Positions 19,194 through 26,426 of a stretch of 64,000 nucleotides of DNA are shown here, in pieces. This stretch comes from Rhodanobacter sp. A1T4. Its GTDB lineage: Bacteria > Pseudomonadota > Gammaproteobacteria > Xanthomonadales > Rhodanobacteraceae. The notes below the pieces were generated by a model that was given only the letters and a program-made list of their open reading frames with translations, made no database searches and was not told the origin of the DNA. The DNA lies in contig NZ_JACHCP010000011.1 of the NCBI RefSeq assembly GCF_014207185.1, positions 1 to 64,000 on the forward strand. The letters run 5' to 3'. Positions within the stretch are counted from its first letter, which is position 1. Each line of letters begins with the position of its first letter. The position numbers and the translations under genes are program-made.

Positions 19194-19529
19194 ATGCTTT
19201 CTGCCTTCATCCATAGCCGTCCTTTGCTCCGCGCGTTGATCGCGTTGGTGCTGTTTGCCGGACTGTTGGGTACGGCGGCAGCGACGCATGCGAGTCTCAC
19301 CTTTGTGCACTCGGTAGCTGCGGTTGTCGATACCGTCAATGGCGATCTCGATACCTCCGCGCTTGATGACACCGTGTCGGCGGAGGATAACGGCCCCAAT
19401 GACACGCTTGATGTCCCGGATGCTTTGACGGTGCCGCAGGCACTACCTCCAAAGTCCCGTCCGACGACGGCACATGCAGCCCCGCTGCAGTGGCACGCCA
19501 CGTCCGAGCTGCGGCCACCGATCGTCTAG
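19194..19529 (+). CDS. Small putative exported protein
   Basis: About 111 aa. A hydrophobic N-terminal segment (LLRALIALVLFAGLLGTAAA) followed by ATHAS looks like a signal peptide or membrane anchor. The rest is acidic and rich in Asp, Thr, Ala and Pro with no recognisable domain. The gene lies about 140 bases before the carbonic anhydrase start on the same strand. The ATG at 19194 is chosen over the TTG at 19176. Function unknown; it may be cell-envelope related. Confidence 0.45.
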   Translation: MLSAFIHSRPLLRALIALVLFAGLLGTAAATHASLTFVHSVAAVVDTVNGDLDTSALDDTVSAEDNGPNDTLDVPDALTVPQALPPKSRPTTAHAAPLQWHATSELRPPIV

Positions 19530-19666
19530 GCGCCATGCCTGCCGCCATCTGTCCGGACGCGGCCTTTCTCTTCCTTTCAGCCCTTCGAAGCGCCATCGGC
19601 GCAGACGGGCATCTGTTTTCGCTTCGCCGCTTTCGCGGCGCGGCCACCTATTTCCGGAGATATCCC

Positions 19667-20350
19667 ATGGAACGCATGATTGATGGTTTTGCCCGTTTCC
19701 GCCGTGAAGTTTTTCCCGAGCAGCGCGAGGTATTCGAGCGCCTGGCCAACGGCCAGAGTCCACACACGATGTTCATTACCTGCGCCGATTCGCGGGTGAT
19801 GCCCGAGATGATGTTTTCGGCGCAGCCGGGTGAGCTGTTCGTCTATCGCAACATCGGCAACATCGTGCCGCCGTATGCGCAGCACGTCAGCGGCGTGGTC
19901 GCTGCGGTGGAGTACGCCGTGAAGGTGCTCAAGGTGCAGCACATCGTGATCTGTGGACACTCGGATTGCGGCGCGATGAAAGCCTTGCAACATCCTGAAA
20001 AACTCGAAGGCATGCCATCGGTGGAAACCTGGCTCAAGCATGCGGATGTGGCGCAGCATGTCACTGCCGAGAAATGTGCGCATTTGCACGGGGAGGATTA
20101 CTTGCGTTGCCTCACCGAGGAGAACGTGGTCGCTCAGCTTGAGCATTTGCGCACGTTGCCAGCGGTGGCCGTCGGCATGGCCAAAGGCAGTTTGACTATC
20201 CACGGCTGGATCTTCGAAATTCCTGACGCCAAGCTGCGCGTGTTCGATGGTACCAAGGGCAAGTTTGTCGATGTGCCGCTATCGGGCTCTGCCATGCCCG
20301 AGGCGTCGCCGAGGACTCGCTTTGCCTCGCTTGTTGCCACGGCCGCGTAA
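19667..20350 (+). CDS. Beta-class carbonic anhydrase
   Basis: A 227-aa cytosolic zinc enzyme interconverting CO2 and bicarbonate. The zinc ligands and catalytic dyad are visible as C39-x-D41-x-R43 in ITCADSRV and H98-x-x-C101 in GHSDCGAM. The start at 19667 follows CCGGAGA; the longer frame from 19490 has no family sequence. It is nine bases from a SulP-type transporter gene, so the two form an operon. This pairing is widespread and usually interpreted as bicarbonate uptake and hydration. The cyanase gene converging from the right uses bicarbonate and yields CO2, so this enzyme may also play the CynT role. Confidence 0.92.
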   Translation: MERMIDGFARFRREVFPEQREVFERLANGQSPHTMFITCADSRVMPEMMFSAQPGELFVYRNIGNIVPPYAQHVSGVVAAVEYAVKVLKVQHIVICGHSDCGAMKALQHPEKLEGMPSVETWLKHADVAQHVTAEKCAHLHGEDYLRCLTEENVVAQLEHLRTLPAVAVGMAKGSLTIHGWIFEIPDAKLRVFDGTKGKFVDVPLSGSAMPEASPRTRFASLVATAA

Positions 20351-20359
20351 GGTGCCCCG

Positions 20360-21868
20360 ATGAAAAACTACTTTTCGCAAGGTCTGTTTGGCCGCGACCT
20401 GTTGGGATCGGTCGTGGTGTTCCTGGTGGCGTTGCCGCTGTGCATGGGCATCGCCATTGCCTCGGGTATGCCGCCCGCCGCCGGTCTGATTACCGGCATT
20501 GTTGGAGGTCTGGTGGTTGGCTTTATCTCCGGTTCGCCATTGCAGGTCAGTGGCCCGGCAGCAGGTCTGGCGGTGCTGGTGTTCGAACTGGTGCGCACGC
20601 ATGGTGTTGCGGCGTTGGGTCCGGTGATTTTGTTGGCGGGCTTGATCCAGGTGGCGGCAGGACTGTGCCGCGTCGGCATCTGGTTTCGCATGACTTCGCC
20701 TGCGGTGGTCGCTGGCATGTTGTCGGGTATCGGCATTCTTATCATCGCTTCCCAGGCGCACGTGATACTCGATGCCAGCCCGGCGGCGAAGGGTCTGCAG
20801 AACTTTGCCGCGTTGCCGGGTGCACTGATGGATGCCTTCGCTGGTGGTACCGGTAAGGCAGCGCTGGCCGTTGGCGTGGCGACCATCGTGATCATGCTGG
20901 CGTGGGAAAAGCTGCGGCCGACCAAGCTGAAGTTTGTCCCGGGCGCCTTGCTGGCCGTGGTTGCCGTGACAGGTGTTGTACAGATGGCGGGCATTGCCGT
21001 GAAAAAGGTCGACGTGCCGTCGAATTTGTTCTCGGCGATTACGTTTCCGACGTGGACGGGCTTGGCGGATGTGTTCGATCCCACCCTGCTGATTGCCGCG
21101 GTCACGTTCGCGTTTATTGCGAGCGCGGAAACGCTGCTGTCGGCTGCAGCGGTTGATCGCATGCATAACGGCGAACGCACCCGCTACGACCGCGAGCTTA
21201 CGGCGCAGGGCATCGGCAACATGCTGTGTGGTTTTTTCGGCGCGCTGCCAATGACCGGCGTGATCGTGCGCAGTGCCGCGAACGTACAGGCCGGTTCCGC
21301 CACGCGTGGCGCGACGATTATGCACGGTGCCTGGTTGCTGGTGCTGGCGATGCTGCTGCCGTGGCTGCTGCGCATGACGCCGGTGTCGTGTCTGGCCGGC
21401 ATTCTGGTGTATACCGGTGTGAAAATGGTGAATCTGGGGCAAGTGAAGGACCTCGCTACTTACGGCAAGGGCACCGCGGCAATCTACCTGGCTACCACGA
21501 TCGCGATTGTCGCCACCGACTTGCTGGCAGGCGTGATCATAGGCTTCGGTCTGTCGCTGTTCCGCCTGGCGCTGCTGTCGTCCAAGCTGAAAATCGGCCT
21601 GCAGGACCATGCCACGCCAGGTGAGGCATCGCTGCATCTGGAAGGCTCGGCGACGTTTCTCAAGGTGCCAAGCATGGCCCGTACCTTGGAGCGTGTGCCC
21701 AACAACACGCGGCTGACACTGGTGCTCGATCGCCTTTTGCATGTCGATCAGGCGTGTTTGGAAATGTTGCGCGAATGGTCGCGGAACGCGTCGACGCGCG
21801 GCTGTGAGCTGGTGGTCGACTGGAAGGCACTGGATGCGCGTGTCGAGGGACGGCGCGTGGCGGCGTAA
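20360..21868 (+). CDS. SulP family anion (probable bicarbonate) transporter
   Basis: A 502-aa inner-membrane transporter with about 12 hydrophobic helices and a C-terminal STAS-like stretch. The signature region FISGSPLQVSGPAAGLAVLV matches the SulP transport motif. Downstream are AIASGMPPAAGLITGIVGG and MTGVIVRSAANVQAG, also characteristic. Coupling to the carbonic anhydrase nine bases upstream favours bicarbonate as substrate, as in SulP/CA operons generally; sulfate remains possible. The STAS region (about residue 425 on) is short. Confidence 0.88.
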   Translation: MKNYFSQGLFGRDLLGSVVVFLVALPLCMGIAIASGMPPAAGLITGIVGGLVVGFISGSPLQVSGPAAGLAVLVFELVRTHGVAALGPVILLAGLIQVAAGLCRVGIWFRMTSPAVVAGMLSGIGILIIASQAHVILDASPAAKGLQNFAALPGALMDAFAGGTGKAALAVGVATIVIMLAWEKLRPTKLKFVPGALLAVVAVTGVVQMAGIAVKKVDVPSNLFSAITFPTWTGLADVFDPTLLIAAVTFAFIASAETLLSAAAVDRMHNGERTRYDRELTAQGIGNMLCGFFGALPMTGVIVRSAANVQAGSATRGATIMHGAWLLVLAMLLPWLLRMTPVSCLAGILVYTGVKMVNLGQVKDLATYGKGTAAIYLATTIAIVATDLLAGVIIGFGLSLFRLALLSSKLKIGLQDHATPGEASLHLEGSATFLKVPSMARTLERVPNNTRLTLVLDRLLHVDQACLEMLREWSRNASTRGCELVVDWKALDARVEGRRVAA

Positions 21869-22101
21869 CCAGGGAAGGCAGGAGCGATTCTTGATTGCGA
21901 ACAAATGACTCTTAAAGTCCGATGTTCATGGTCGAGGATCGTTCTTGCCGTGACCTTTGATACTTCGATGGTGGCGAGACCTTGACGAATATCAGGGTCA
22001 TTGCCATCGATTCATGGCTTCAGATTTGATTAGATAGCTTTATGCCCGTGCCAATGTTTGGTGCGGGATATATTCTGATACGTGCTTTCAGCTTGCTCAT
22101 A

Positions 22102-22572
22102 TCAGAACGGGTTGTACGGCAGGAACTTGCCGTCGAGAGTAATGACTGCGCGTGAGCCACCATCGGGGTCTTCGACTTTCTTGATATCTATCTTGAAGTT
22201 GATGGCGCTGATGATGCCGTCGCCAAATTGCTCGTGCACCAAAGCGCGCAAGGTGGTGCCGTATACCTGCACCATTTCATAGAAACGATAAATGGTCGGG
22301 TCCGTAGGAATGCCGCCTGGAATGCTGCCGCGCATGGGTATTGTTTGTAGCAGCGTGATGTCGTCTTGATCGAGATCGAGCCGTTGCGCGACCAGTTTCG
22401 CTGCATCGCTCGGTAACGGATGCTGTCCGAGCAGGGCGGCAGTGACGTAAGCGAGACTCAGGCCGGTGCCTTCAGCCAGTTGCTGCCAGGTAAGATTTTT
22501 ACGCGTCTTGGCGTCGATGATTGTGTCGGTGAGATCGAGGCGTAGATCCTGGCTGACTTGCGAATGCGGCGT
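22102..22572 (-). CDS. cynS: Cyanase with ACG in place of the start ATG
   Basis: Cyanate hydratase converts cyanate plus bicarbonate to CO2 and carbamate (hence ammonia). Read from an ACG codon at 22570-22572 the protein is exactly 156 residues, the same as E. coli CynS, and the catalytic residues fall at the canonical numbers R96 and E99 (YRFYEMVQ) and S122 ([10 protein letters not shown]). The helical N-terminal domain ([20 protein letters not shown]) is intact. AGGAGA lies six bases before the ACG, the ideal spacing, and no ATG, GTG or TTG exists in frame upstream of residue 80. So either ACG is used, expression is crippled by an ATG-to-ACG mutation, or one base is miscalled. It converges with carbonic anhydrase/SulP genes. 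Confidence 0.9.
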
Positions 22573-22929
22573 GATTTTTCTCCTATGCGGGAATGGCAGA
22601 TTGGTCAGATCGTCGTTGCGATTTCAACGGGGTTCCTTCGCACGCCGCATGCGGCGGCCGCAATGCATTTGAAAAACTTATGACAGAAGATGTGACTGTG
22701 GCCCGCACTTTTGACGATCTACCGCAGCAGAAGCGCCTGCCATCAGCTACCTTGTAGTATCAAGATAAGCCGAATTATCGGCATTGATATTGTGTCATCA
22801 GCTTCAGGGCCCTAGGATCAAAACCGGTCGATAAAAAGAACGGGTGTCGGTGGAAACGGCTCGACCAATTGATCCATATCCTCGCCTTTGCTGGTTTTTC
22901 CCCTATCCACGACAGGATGCCGAGCCGCC
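22573..22929. other. Intergenic region between cynS and the lipase cassette
   Basis: About 360 bases separate the divergent cynS and the cassette starting at 22930. Base composition shifts from GC-rich to more AT-rich toward the cassette. I see no gene, RNA or long repeat here. Confidence 0.4.
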
Positions 22930-23457
22930 ATGACTATCCCCTCTACAGACGCCGACACCACGCACGAGTTGATGTCCAGCGCATCTTCTCTGCGATTCAA
23001 TGTGCATGACTTTGAGGTGTATTGCTACAACACGATTCGCTGCAGAGTGATTTACGACGAGTCAAACCTCAGCCCCTCGAACGCAGAGGATCATCCGTCG
23101 CCGCCCCCTCCCTCCGCTGATTACAAAGACCGCTGGGGTGAAGCTTCCTATATGAGCGTTCGTAATTTTCCTGCTCCTGCAGAAGTGAGCTGGGCGTCGC
23201 TTGACGGCGTTGAGCACGAAGCCAAGGTGGATATTGGCGCGATCTTCCAGGGCGAACGAGTCCTTTATAGCGTGCCCGATTCGGAAGTCCTGCAAAACTC
23301 TTTGGAGAACGATCCAGGGGTGTTTCTGGAGGTGAACGATCACACCATCAATGTTTATATGAAGGCTTTCATTCCCACCAAAACCGAGCGCGTGCCGGGA
23401 AATGAATACAGCAAATTCCGCAATGATCTGATTCTGGCCTGGAGCCACACTTTCTAA
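22930..23457 (+). CDS. Unknown protein, candidate immunity partner of the downstream lipase
   Basis: About 175 aa, no signal peptide and no membrane segment. The N-terminal part has FNVHDFEVYCYNTIRCRVIY, then a proline-rich patch (SPPPPSADYKDRWGE) and a beta-rich C-terminal half ending KFRNDLILAWSHTF. I do not recognise the family. The stop is 15 bases before the ATG of the DUF2235 lipase, which has its own strong ribosome-binding site, so they are co-transcribed. Size and position before a toxin-like lipase suggest an immunity protein or an effector-loading adaptor; this is inference from context only. The frame is open from 22888; ATG 22930 is the preferred start but has no clear ribosome-binding site. 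Confidence 0.6.
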   Translation: MTIPSTDADTTHELMSSASSLRFNVHDFEVYCYNTIRCRVIYDESNLSPSNAEDHPSPPPPSADYKDRWGEASYMSVRNFPAPAEVSWASLDGVEHEAKVDIGAIFQGERVLYSVPDSEVLQNSLENDPGVFLEVNDHTINVYMKAFIPTKTERVPGNEYSKFRNDLILAWSHTF

Positions 23458-23472
23458 TCAGGAGCAAAGAAT

Positions 23473-25077
23473 ATGGGCGGTATGCGCAGAGGGAACGGAA
23501 GCGAAGGCGAGAGCGGGGGCGGAAACCCGAGCGAAGAACTGCGGACGATGAGTGAAGGTAATCGCGTCTATCAGCTTACCGATAAAGATATGCATCTTTA
23601 TACGCAGGCTCGAACGACGCTATCAGATTTTCAAACGCCAAAGTTGGTGTCACTGGTTGAACCAACTGCCGAGCGGCCGGGCAGCAGGTTGTTTGTTGCG
23701 GCTTTTGATGGAACGGGTAACGATGCCGACAACGACCCTGTGAAGAATCAGACCAATGTTGCGCACATCCGCAAGGAGATTGAGGCTAGCCGCACCAGCG
23801 GAGCGACAAACGGCAATGTGGCGGTTGGTTACCTCCGCGGCCCGGGGACTCAAGGCAATGCATTGCCGCTCGGACACGAAGATCGCGCCGTTGGGGCATC
23901 GGTTTCTGCGACTAGGGACAGCATGAGAGGCTCGACGACGCAAGAGCGAGCAGAGAGGATGTATGACAAGTTTTGCACGCAGGCGACAGTGTGGAAAAGT
24001 GAACATCCAAAGTGTGAAATCGCGGTCTCCAGTGTAGGGTTCAGTCGTGGTGCAGAAGAGGCCGCGCTATTTACCCGCTTGGTACATGAGCGCGGTATCA
24101 GGAACATGAATGTTACTGATGTAAAAGCCGACGGCGCGTACCTAGTGCCTCCCAAACCGTATGGTCAAACGGCTCAGACAGTTGTGCTTTTCGATCCTGT
24201 AGCCACCGGTACAACAGAGAGGCTGGATCGCCATCTACCGTCTTCGGTCATTTCGGGTATCCAGCTTTATGCGGGCGACGAAAAGCGTAACTTGTTCAAA
24301 GGCGATCCCATCATTCCAGCGGTTAAGCCAGGTGACCCCGCGCCTAAAGAACATGTAGAGGGAACAGGGCCACAGAGTCGTTTAGTCGGCTTGATGATGC
24401 CCGGTTCACATTCGGACGTCGGCGGCAGTTATGCCCTCAACGGTGCTTCGGCTCGTGCGGGAAATTTCGGCGTCGACTATCTGAACAGCCTGAGCGACAA
24501 ACCGTTTATTAGTAACATCAAGGAGCCTGCGCGAGAGGATACGTACAGGCATAACTCGATGGACGCCGGTGGTTCTTCGATGGTCTGGACGTTGTACAAG
24601 GCAAACAACACCGGGAGTATGTATCGGCACTGGACTGGGCCAATCGATCGGAAAGATACTACTCCGGGCTCGCGAGCCTACGTCAACCAAGAACGTCCCG
24701 ATCCGGTGAATCCGGCTTTGAGTAGTAAGTATGCGTTTACTGGGTCAATAACGCACAATTCCAAGCCGCCACAGGAAATGGGCAATGCATCGAGGCCCGA
24801 GGCAACCAACGCTCGCAATGATCAGGCGCCACGTCAAGGTACCTCCAGAGAGTCAACCGATTCCGTTCTTAATACTTTGTCTAGAGCAGCCAGCAGCAAT
24901 GACATGAACATGGCGCAAGCCGTGCTCAGCAATTCCTCCAATCCGGCTTTGGCTGCTCGGGAACAAGGTGCGCAAGCGCAAGCTTCGCAACGGCAGCAGG
25001 CTCAACAATCTGCTGAGCCCCAGCCACAGCGGGAGCCGACGCCGCCTACCCAAAATGCGGGGCAACCAAGACGTTGA
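23473..25077 (+). CDS. DUF2235 / Tle1-like phospholipase, candidate antibacterial effector
   Basis: A 534-aa alpha/beta hydrolase of the DUF2235 group, which includes type VI secretion phospholipase effectors of the Tle1 kind. Visible signatures are LFVAAFDGTGND (about residues 72-83), the nucleophile elbow GxSxG as SVGFSRGAEE (about 189-194), VLFDPVATGT, and the histidine motif MPGSHSDVGGSY (about 308-319). The last 90 residues leave the fold: a Ser/Asn-rich helix-like part and then a Gln-rich tail (AREQGAQAQASQRQQAQQ). A polar Gln-rich tail is reminiscent of Xanthomonad type IV secretion effectors. AGGAG lies eight bases before the ATG. No secretion system is in the window. Confidence 0.8.
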   Translation: MGGMRRGNGSEGESGGGNPSEELRTMSEGNRVYQLTDKDMHLYTQARTTLSDFQTPKLVSLVEPTAERPGSRLFVAAFDGTGNDADNDPVKNQTNVAHIRKEIEASRTSGATNGNVAVGYLRGPGTQGNALPLGHEDRAVGASVSATRDSMRGSTTQERAERMYDKFCTQATVWKSEHPKCEIAVSSVGFSRGAEEAALFTRLVHERGIRNMNVTDVKADGAYLVPPKPYGQTAQTVVLFDPVATGTTERLDRHLPSSVISGIQLYAGDEKRNLFKGDPIIPAVKPGDPAPKEHVEGTGPQSRLVGLMMPGSHSDVGGSYALNGASARAGNFGVDYLNSLSDKPFISNIKEPAREDTYRHNSMDAGGSSMVWTLYKANNTGSMYRHWTGPIDRKDTTPGSRAYVNQERPDPVNPALSSKYAFTGSITHNSKPPQEMGNASRPEATNARNDQAPRQGTSRESTDSVLNTLSRAASSNDMNMAQAVLSNSSNPALAAREQGAQAQASQRQQAQQSAEPQPQREPTPPTQNAGQPRR

Positions 25078-25150
25078 CGATGAATCATGTCAGGCGAGGC
25101 GCTAGGCCAGAACGTGAGGCCGGATTTTTAGACTTTCTCAAGAGTGGACC

Positions 25151-25726
25151 ATGGAAGCCATAGATATTGACGAGCTAAAGCAGCAACTGCTGCAAATGGC
25201 GACCATCACCAGCTGGCTGGATGACAGAAGCGAACAAGCGGTGCAACGGGTCGAGGCCAGTACCGAGGCCCTGGACGAAGGGTTGCGTCGACTGGACGGC
25301 AATAGCGAACAATTTGTCGAAGAGGTCACGCGGCTTATCGGAGAGCACGTCCATCAGGCCGTTCTGCAAGGTGCCTCGAAAGCCGTCGGCGAATTCGACA
25401 AGCAGCTGCAGTCGAGCACGCGGGCGGCACAGTGGGCGGCGCAGGCGATGGACGAGCAGCGCAAAGGCTTGTCTATCGTGCAGCATGCACTGGTGTGGAA
25501 GGGCTTGCTCGCGCTGTTTATCGGTGCGCTGTTCGCCGTCGGTGGCGCAGGTTTCGTCGTGTGGGACAGCATGCGCGAGATCAAGATTGCCCAGTTCGAT
25601 CAGGATGTCTTGCATGCCACGCAGACCGGTGCGCTGACCCGCTGCGGTGAGGCGCTTTGCGCCAAGGTCGGTAAACAGATCAAGCGTTACGGCAATGACG
25701 GTGACTACGTGCTGCTGTCGGAATAA
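25151..25726 (+). CDS. Coiled-coil, single-pass membrane protein of unknown function
   Basis: A 191-aa protein: residues 1-112 are highly charged, amphipathic and predicted to be helical or coiled-coil (ELKQQLLQMAT, RSEQAVQRVEASTEALDEGL), then one hydrophobic helix (about 115-138, KGLLALFIGALFAVGGAGFV), then about 50 residues with two cysteines (RCGEALCAKV). I do not recognise it. It follows the lipase by 73 bases on the same strand, so it may belong to the cassette, but its base composition is more GC-rich and like the core genome. A membrane-tethered scaffold or sensor are both possible. Confidence 0.65.
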   Translation: MEAIDIDELKQQLLQMATITSWLDDRSEQAVQRVEASTEALDEGLRRLDGNSEQFVEEVTRLIGEHVHQAVLQGASKAVGEFDKQLQSSTRAAQWAAQAMDEQRKGLSIVQHALVWKGLLALFIGALFAVGGAGFVVWDSMREIKIAQFDQDVLHATQTGALTRCGEALCAKVGKQIKRYGNDGDYVLLSE

Positions 25727-25832
25727 ATAATTCTCGGCAGCACATTTCTCGATCACATGATGAAAGCCGATCGCCTCACCATTGATCCATCTGACAAATC
25801 AGTTTCACAGATGACTCGTGGTTGCCACGATG

Positions 25833-26426
25833 TCAGGCCGCCGCTGCTTTTGAATTCAACGCATGCGCCCGACCGGCTTGCCGCCAGCTGCGCAAGCCGA
25901 TCGCCGCCAGCACGATAAATCCCGCGTACAGCACCGAGGTAATCAGCAGGTGCTTGTAGACGTATTCGCCCACGTAGATCACATCCACCACGATCCATAG
26001 CCACCATGCGGCGATATGACGGCGCGCCTGCCACCACTGTGCGACGAGGCTGAATGCGGTGAGTGCCGAGTCGAGCCACGGCAAGGCAGCGTCGGTCCAG
26101 CGATGCATGGCGAAGCCGAGCATCAGTGATCCGATGACGCCGAGTGCGATATGCGCGGCGGCCTCGCTGGTTGGCAGCGGAGCGACCTGCACACGGCCGT
26201 CGTCATCGAGATTGCGTAGCCAGCGCAGCCAGCCGTAGACGATCAGCACGGCGAAGGCGACCTGCAGCAGCGCGTCGGAGTACAGTTTCGCCTCGGCGAA
26301 GATCCCGACGTAAACCGCGACCGAAAGCAAGCCGATCGGCCAGCACCACGGTCGGCGCTGCGCAGTAAGCCACACAGCCCACGCGCTGAGCAGTGCGCCA
26401 AAGAGTTCGATCCAGGATATTTCCAT
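25833..26426 (-). CDS. PnuC-family vitamin transporter, probably thiamine (PnuT)
   Basis: A 197-aa inner-membrane protein of the PnuC family, facilitators that take up nicotinamide riboside, riboflavin or thiamine. Hydrophobic helices and the PnuC-like WCWPIGLLSVAVYVGIFAEA and LYSDALLQVAFAVLIVYGW are visible; WWLWIVVDVIYVGEYVYK lies near the end. The start is ATG 26426 with GAGG upstream. It is 10 bases downstream of a TonB receptor gene whose leader has a TPP riboswitch, so thiamine is the expected substrate (PnuT type). The phosphotransferase upstream could trap it by phosphorylation. Confidence 0.85.
   Translation of the reverse strand: MEISWIELFGALLSAWAVWLTAQRRPWCWPIGLLSVAVYVGIFAEAKLYSDALLQVAFAVLIVYGWLRWLRNLDDDGRVQVAPLPTSEAAAHIALGVIGSLMLGFAMHRWTDAALPWLDSALTAFSLVAQWWQARRHIAAWWLWIVVDVIYVGEYVYKHLLITSVLYAGFIVLAAIGLRSWRQAGRAHALNSKAAAA

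Follow-up and report, generated by a model that had tools for sequence, protein, structure and literature searches.

AUC is usually a stronger start codon than ACG, and Hecht reportedly measured all 64 codons in E. coli in 2017. The use of AUU, CUG and AUC starts across prokaryotes, at variable incidence, is described in the available excerpt of PMC9845219. According to the excerpted text of PMC5472188, IF3 represses starts other than ATG, GTG and TTG; infC begins with ATT in E. coli and with ATC in Streptomyces; and the GTC start of Streptomyces sigR, itself repressed by IF3, was established by changing codons, by Western blotting and from the protein's N terminus. At the level of titles and abstract openings, the literature search turned up no chromosomal gene in bacteria for which initiation at ACG has been proven. 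The cynS gene described here shares with sigR, as excerpted there, a start-codon rule that picks the wrong start and a suspected non-canonical one; in contrast to sigR, the suspected start of cynS comes from sequence.

The gene lies in a window of 64,000 nucleotides, positions 1 to 64,000 of contig NZ_JACHCP010000011.1 of Rhodanobacter sp. A1T4. On the minus strand, positions 22102–22572 read without inner stops as 156 codons plus a stop codon, with ACG as codon 1 (TPHSQVSQ...LPYNPF). The translated frame scores 199.8 bits against TIGR00673 (cynS; cutoff 113.3) and 218.1 bits against NF002773 (cutoff 150), and contains the Pfam domains CYNS_N (residues 11–79) and Cyanate_lyase (residues 88–154); additionally, the solved cyanase chains 1dw9 and 7o74 align to it without offset over residues 4–156. 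R96, E99 and S122, which we take to be active-site residues from their role in the E. coli enzyme, are present at those numbers, and are unchanged in all 86 other distinct rows of an alignment drawn from 89 relatives, namely, 80 loci from named genomes (the best 80 of 540 confirmed loci) and nine loci of the organism's own family. Frame, family scores and alignment thus agree with the first-pass annotation of a complete cyanase gene of 156 residues with these three residues in place. A cyanase would be expected to break down cyanate in a bicarbonate-dependent reaction. As judged from the same features, the gene is an ordinary bacterial cyanase apart from its start codon: relative to described CynS (TIGR00673; chains 1dw9, 4y42 and 7o74), it is alike in length, numbering, active site and both domains, and differs in having ACG as codon 1, in a K109R substitution, and in that no cyn operon was seen alongside.

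The ACG codon (22570–22572, minus strand) is preceded by the Shine-Dalgarno-like sequence AGGAG (22580–22584), at a distance of 7 nt, which bears out the earlier description of a suitably placed ribosome binding site. Directly upstream of ACG, and in frame with it, is an ATC codon (22573–22575), 4 nt from AGGAG. Reading back from ACG, the frame stays open over 17 codons as far as a TGA, and no ATG, GTG or TTG occurs among them; two CTG codons are in frame, farther upstream than ATC. The first in-frame canonical start is the ATG at 22333–22335 (M80), and, as had been predicted, gene callers demanding such a start would see only a 77-aa fragment.

The first-pass annotation had placed ACG where the start ATG belongs and proposed a comparison of codon 1 across relatives. 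ATG stands exactly in the ACG column in 85 of the 89 relatives (84 counted mechanically, together with L046, which is gap-free after correction of a gap that tblastn had misplaced), and one codon later in the remaining four (L040, L069, L079 and L080). Hence, among the best 80 of 540 loci and the nine of the family, none is without ATG at codon 1 or 2, and there is no conserved non-canonical start codon among these relatives. The ACG column is, therefore, the ancestral start column and, as ACG is one transition from ATG, the alignment indicates that an ancestral ATG became ACG at its middle base, through either a single T-to-C step or an erroneous base. Provided that the base is correct, the ancestral start was destroyed in the A1T4 lineage. 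L080 (Burkholderia multivorans WS-FJ9) shares the ACG of A1T4 at this column, with ATG directly after it, so that the ACG of L080 may simply belong to the leader. Among the 84 counted relatives (again from the best 80 of 540 plus nine), 19 have ATC before the ATG, from which it follows that the ATC of A1T4 is probably inherited leader.

The first-pass annotation also treated ACG as the initiation codon; as stated, this lacks support, as it overlooked the adjoining ATC, a competing near-cognate start that reads as the start of infC in this genus. In the infC gene of A1T4 itself (L115, G000:C2), the open upstream frame is devoid of canonical starts, and GGAGG, 8 nt and then ATC mark the N terminus. 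The same ATC was found in all 31 genus loci examined (A1T4 and 30 of the 43 other matching genomes; 44 of 45 genus genomes match), and none of them has a canonical start within the eight codons that precede the conserved DNKG motif. From these sequences and the known infC genes, we infer that ATC is the infC start codon in these loci, so that the genus can very probably use ATC for initiation. The cynS site may consequently be viewed as two near-cognate codons in tandem, ATC-ACG, that follow a good Shine-Dalgarno sequence, and resembles infC (ATC by sequence in this genus; ATT in E. coli and ATC in Streptomyces in the excerpted PMC5472188) in presenting a near-cognate codon behind a purine-rich Shine-Dalgarno sequence. 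The two differ in that the infC codon is kept in every one of the 31 loci and lies 8 nt from GGAGG, whereas the ATC of cynS looks like leader inherited from before a lost ATG. An unusual initiator tRNA as an explanation is unsupported: the one initiator-type tRNA found with a 42-base pattern has the anticodon CAT.

On balance, we favour the interpretation that A1T4 carries a laterally acquired cynS in which ATG was changed to ACG by a single T-to-C step, giving a start-mutated gene that would make little or no full-length CynS. Both the Shine-Dalgarno sequence and the coding frame remain intact in this gene. Any full-length translation would then be weak and would begin at the tandem ATC-ACG, of which ATC is usually the better codon and ACG, at 7 nt as against 4 nt, the better spaced; IF3 should hold down both. 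We infer a real mutation, with weak initiation limited by IF3, and the allele would then either be strongly hypomorphic or have been silenced recently. Since ACG occupies the position of the relatives' ATG, right after an ATC, the locus probably holds a gene that has been weakened or has recently fallen silent, rather than one that proves a novel type of start signal.

The coding sequence itself appears to have been constrained. The dN/dS ratios between A1T4 and seven relatives are 0.10–0.17, with dS above 1 in all seven and, thus, near saturation; among the relatives themselves, four of six pairs give 0.12–0.21 and two are uncomputable. This suggests that the protein was constrained over most of the branch, and is not informative as to how recently the start changed. 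Of the 89 columns in which at least 90% of the other rows agree, A1T4 CynS departs at four (A71D, K109R, L128I and K154N). Of the 87 distinct rows (best 80 of 540 loci plus nine of the family), three have more departures (8, 8 and 5) and one has as many, placing A1T4 in the top five; in the seven other rows with a nearest-neighbour identity of 0.78–0.83, the number ranges from 0 to 4, such that A1T4 is at the upper end. As it falls within the range of rows at similar distance, we did not count this as decay of the protein. K109 is unchanged in the 86 other rows from the same set, and its conservative replacement by R in A1T4 may point to constraint beginning to relax or to drift in the lineage.

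The first-pass annotation argued that an intact frame with intact catalytic residues favours function. Both are indeed intact, and the further decay that would mark a start-loss pseudogene (stops, frameshifts or a broken active site) was not seen in the 156 codons, but the step from there to function is weak. Only 41 of the 1395 possible point changes in cynS create a stop and, in a model with an assumed indel rate of 7% of substitutions, the probability that a copy free of constraint is still open is 0.63 after 1% neutral divergence and 0.40 after 2%. An open frame can therefore not separate function from recent loss and, with so few point changes making stops, further decay is not yet expected if the start was lost recently.

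Three other readings of the start have to be set against the mutated one. A base-call or assembly error, with a true ATG and an ordinary working cynS behind it, is unlikely, albeit to be reckoned with; the first-pass annotation had raised a base error and a recent start loss as its alternatives. It would account for an ACG that is one base from the family ATG in a gene that otherwise looks normal, and the allele comes from one assembly only. That assembly is, however, a good one (100% complete, 0.24% contamination, 31 contigs), and a check of other starts also speaks against it: in a comparison of 160 kb of the A1T4 contig with 299 kb of another genus genome (G025), 117 of 1076 ORFs were matched, of which 30 were kept at an identity of at least 60% and with overlaps removed, and in 26 of this small sample of 30 a canonical start coincides with or precedes the aligned part. 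The four ORFs flagged look over-extended or spurious by judgement; the fourth, viewed on the G025 side only, almost coincides in position with the second, on the opposite strand.

We consider it rather improbable that cynS has a working, selected non-AUG start, yielding useful CynS from ATC and/or ACG, perhaps under IF3 control in the manner of infC or Streptomyces sigR. The intact and constrained frame and active site are consistent with such a start, as are the good Shine-Dalgarno sequence, the use of ATC at the head of infC in the genus, and the precedent of the IF3-repressed GTC start of sigR in the excerpt of PMC5472188. Moreover, the folding of the start region is ordinary, at −5.7 kcal/mol against a median of about −5.2 kcal/mol (range −14.7 to −1.1 kcal/mol) in 88 of the 89 relatives, these again being from the best 80 of 540 loci plus nine of the family. 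Set against this are the ATG at codon 1 or 2 in every one of those 89 relatives, an ATC that looks inherited and lies only 4 nt from AGGAG, and the silence of long-branch constraint on the time since the start changed. The specific version in which cynS is translated from AUC and then ACG behind its strong Shine-Dalgarno sequence, with an output governed, as in infC, by the amount of IF3 or the state of the ribosome, is a long shot. Initiation at M80, giving a 77-aa protein with the C-terminal domain only, is very improbable: M80 falls between CYNS_N and Cyanate_lyase, with all three active-site residues behind it, but no Shine-Dalgarno sequence is apparent ahead of it by eye, and M occurs at this column in just 3 of the 86 other rows (best 80 of 540 plus nine of the family), which argues against a conserved start.

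If the base is right, the start-mutated cynS offers a natural case for measuring how much full-length protein is obtained from near-cognate codons behind a good Shine-Dalgarno sequence, and growth on cyanate is a simple readout for such a start-codon question. It also illustrates that one base in a start codon can hide a whole enzyme from gene callers. Should the tandem AUC-ACG reading be true, this would be an acquired metabolic gene whose start codon, and not a regulator, keeps its output low. Apart from these points, the gene is an ordinary copy, mutated at its start, of a common detoxification gene.

The genomic context bears on the origin of the gene. cynS is found in one of 45 genus genomes and in 10 of 233 family genomes, that of A1T4 included. 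In A1T4 it is part of a segment of ∼4 kb (21869–25868) that, by genome comparison, stands in place of 965–968 bp in the genomes G025 and G041; the segment also holds a Tle1-like gene for a type VI secretion (T6SS) phospholipase (23473–25077) and two ORFs without Pfam matches (22888–23457 and 25151–25726). The replaced interval contains a 222-aa ORF, assigned to MOSC by Pfam in G025 and judged by eye to be similar in G041; the A1T4 genome as a whole gave no MOSC match. The rarity of cynS in the genus, together with the 4-kb segment where G025 has its MOSC gene, argues that the A1T4 gene is laterally acquired. The left edge of the segment adjoins a SulP-family transporter gene (20360–21868, plus strand) that converges on cynS, and which is itself preceded by a gene for a β-carbonic anhydrase (Pro_CA in Pfam; 19490–20350, plus strand). 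At the DNA level, the SulP-side flank is shared only with G025 and G041 among the 44 other genus genomes. The carbonic anhydrase–SulP pair was considered as part of a cyn operon and rejected, since G025 carries the pair without cynS. G041 also has the pair, with ∼1 kb of the SulP gene missing relative to A1T4 (L113, G041:C69, 3126), reflecting either a deletion or an assembly gap.

Among eight ORFs beside cynS in L003, L004, L007 and L009, representing some of the neighbours only, there is neither a carbonic anhydrase nor a LysR regulator; one of the eight, in L003, is an MFS transporter that could be of the cyanate type. A cynS relative is present in 100 plasmid records, the best at 79% identity. 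No mobile source of the 4-kb segment was found: among the 15 plasmid matches listed, 10–12% of it is covered, corresponding to the cynS part only. The nearest alignment row to A1T4 CynS is 80% identical (among the best 80 of 540 loci plus nine of the family). In a midpoint-rooted tree of the 87 distinct rows from this set, with identical rows merged and L046 left out because its misplaced gap made it look three residues short, A1T4 shares a 10-row group with Oxalobacteraceae, Burkholderiaceae, two Pseudomonas and a bog metagenome genome. Support for pairing it with this metagenome row, which has a long branch, is weak (85/70). The other nine family copies of cynS fall in the other large group of the tree, apart from A1T4.

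A search of 21850–23100 for sigma-70-like promoters found none, where 1.1 would be expected by chance, and argues neither way. In the leader (22583–22708, minus strand), frames beginning with GTG at −136 and TTG at −55 both end at a TAG that overlaps the cynS Shine-Dalgarno sequence, a layout that could couple their translation to that of cynS; the TTG frame has AAGGA ahead of it. The leader that separates cynS from the divergent ORF at 22888–23457 additionally contains a small GC-rich hairpin (22769–22782).
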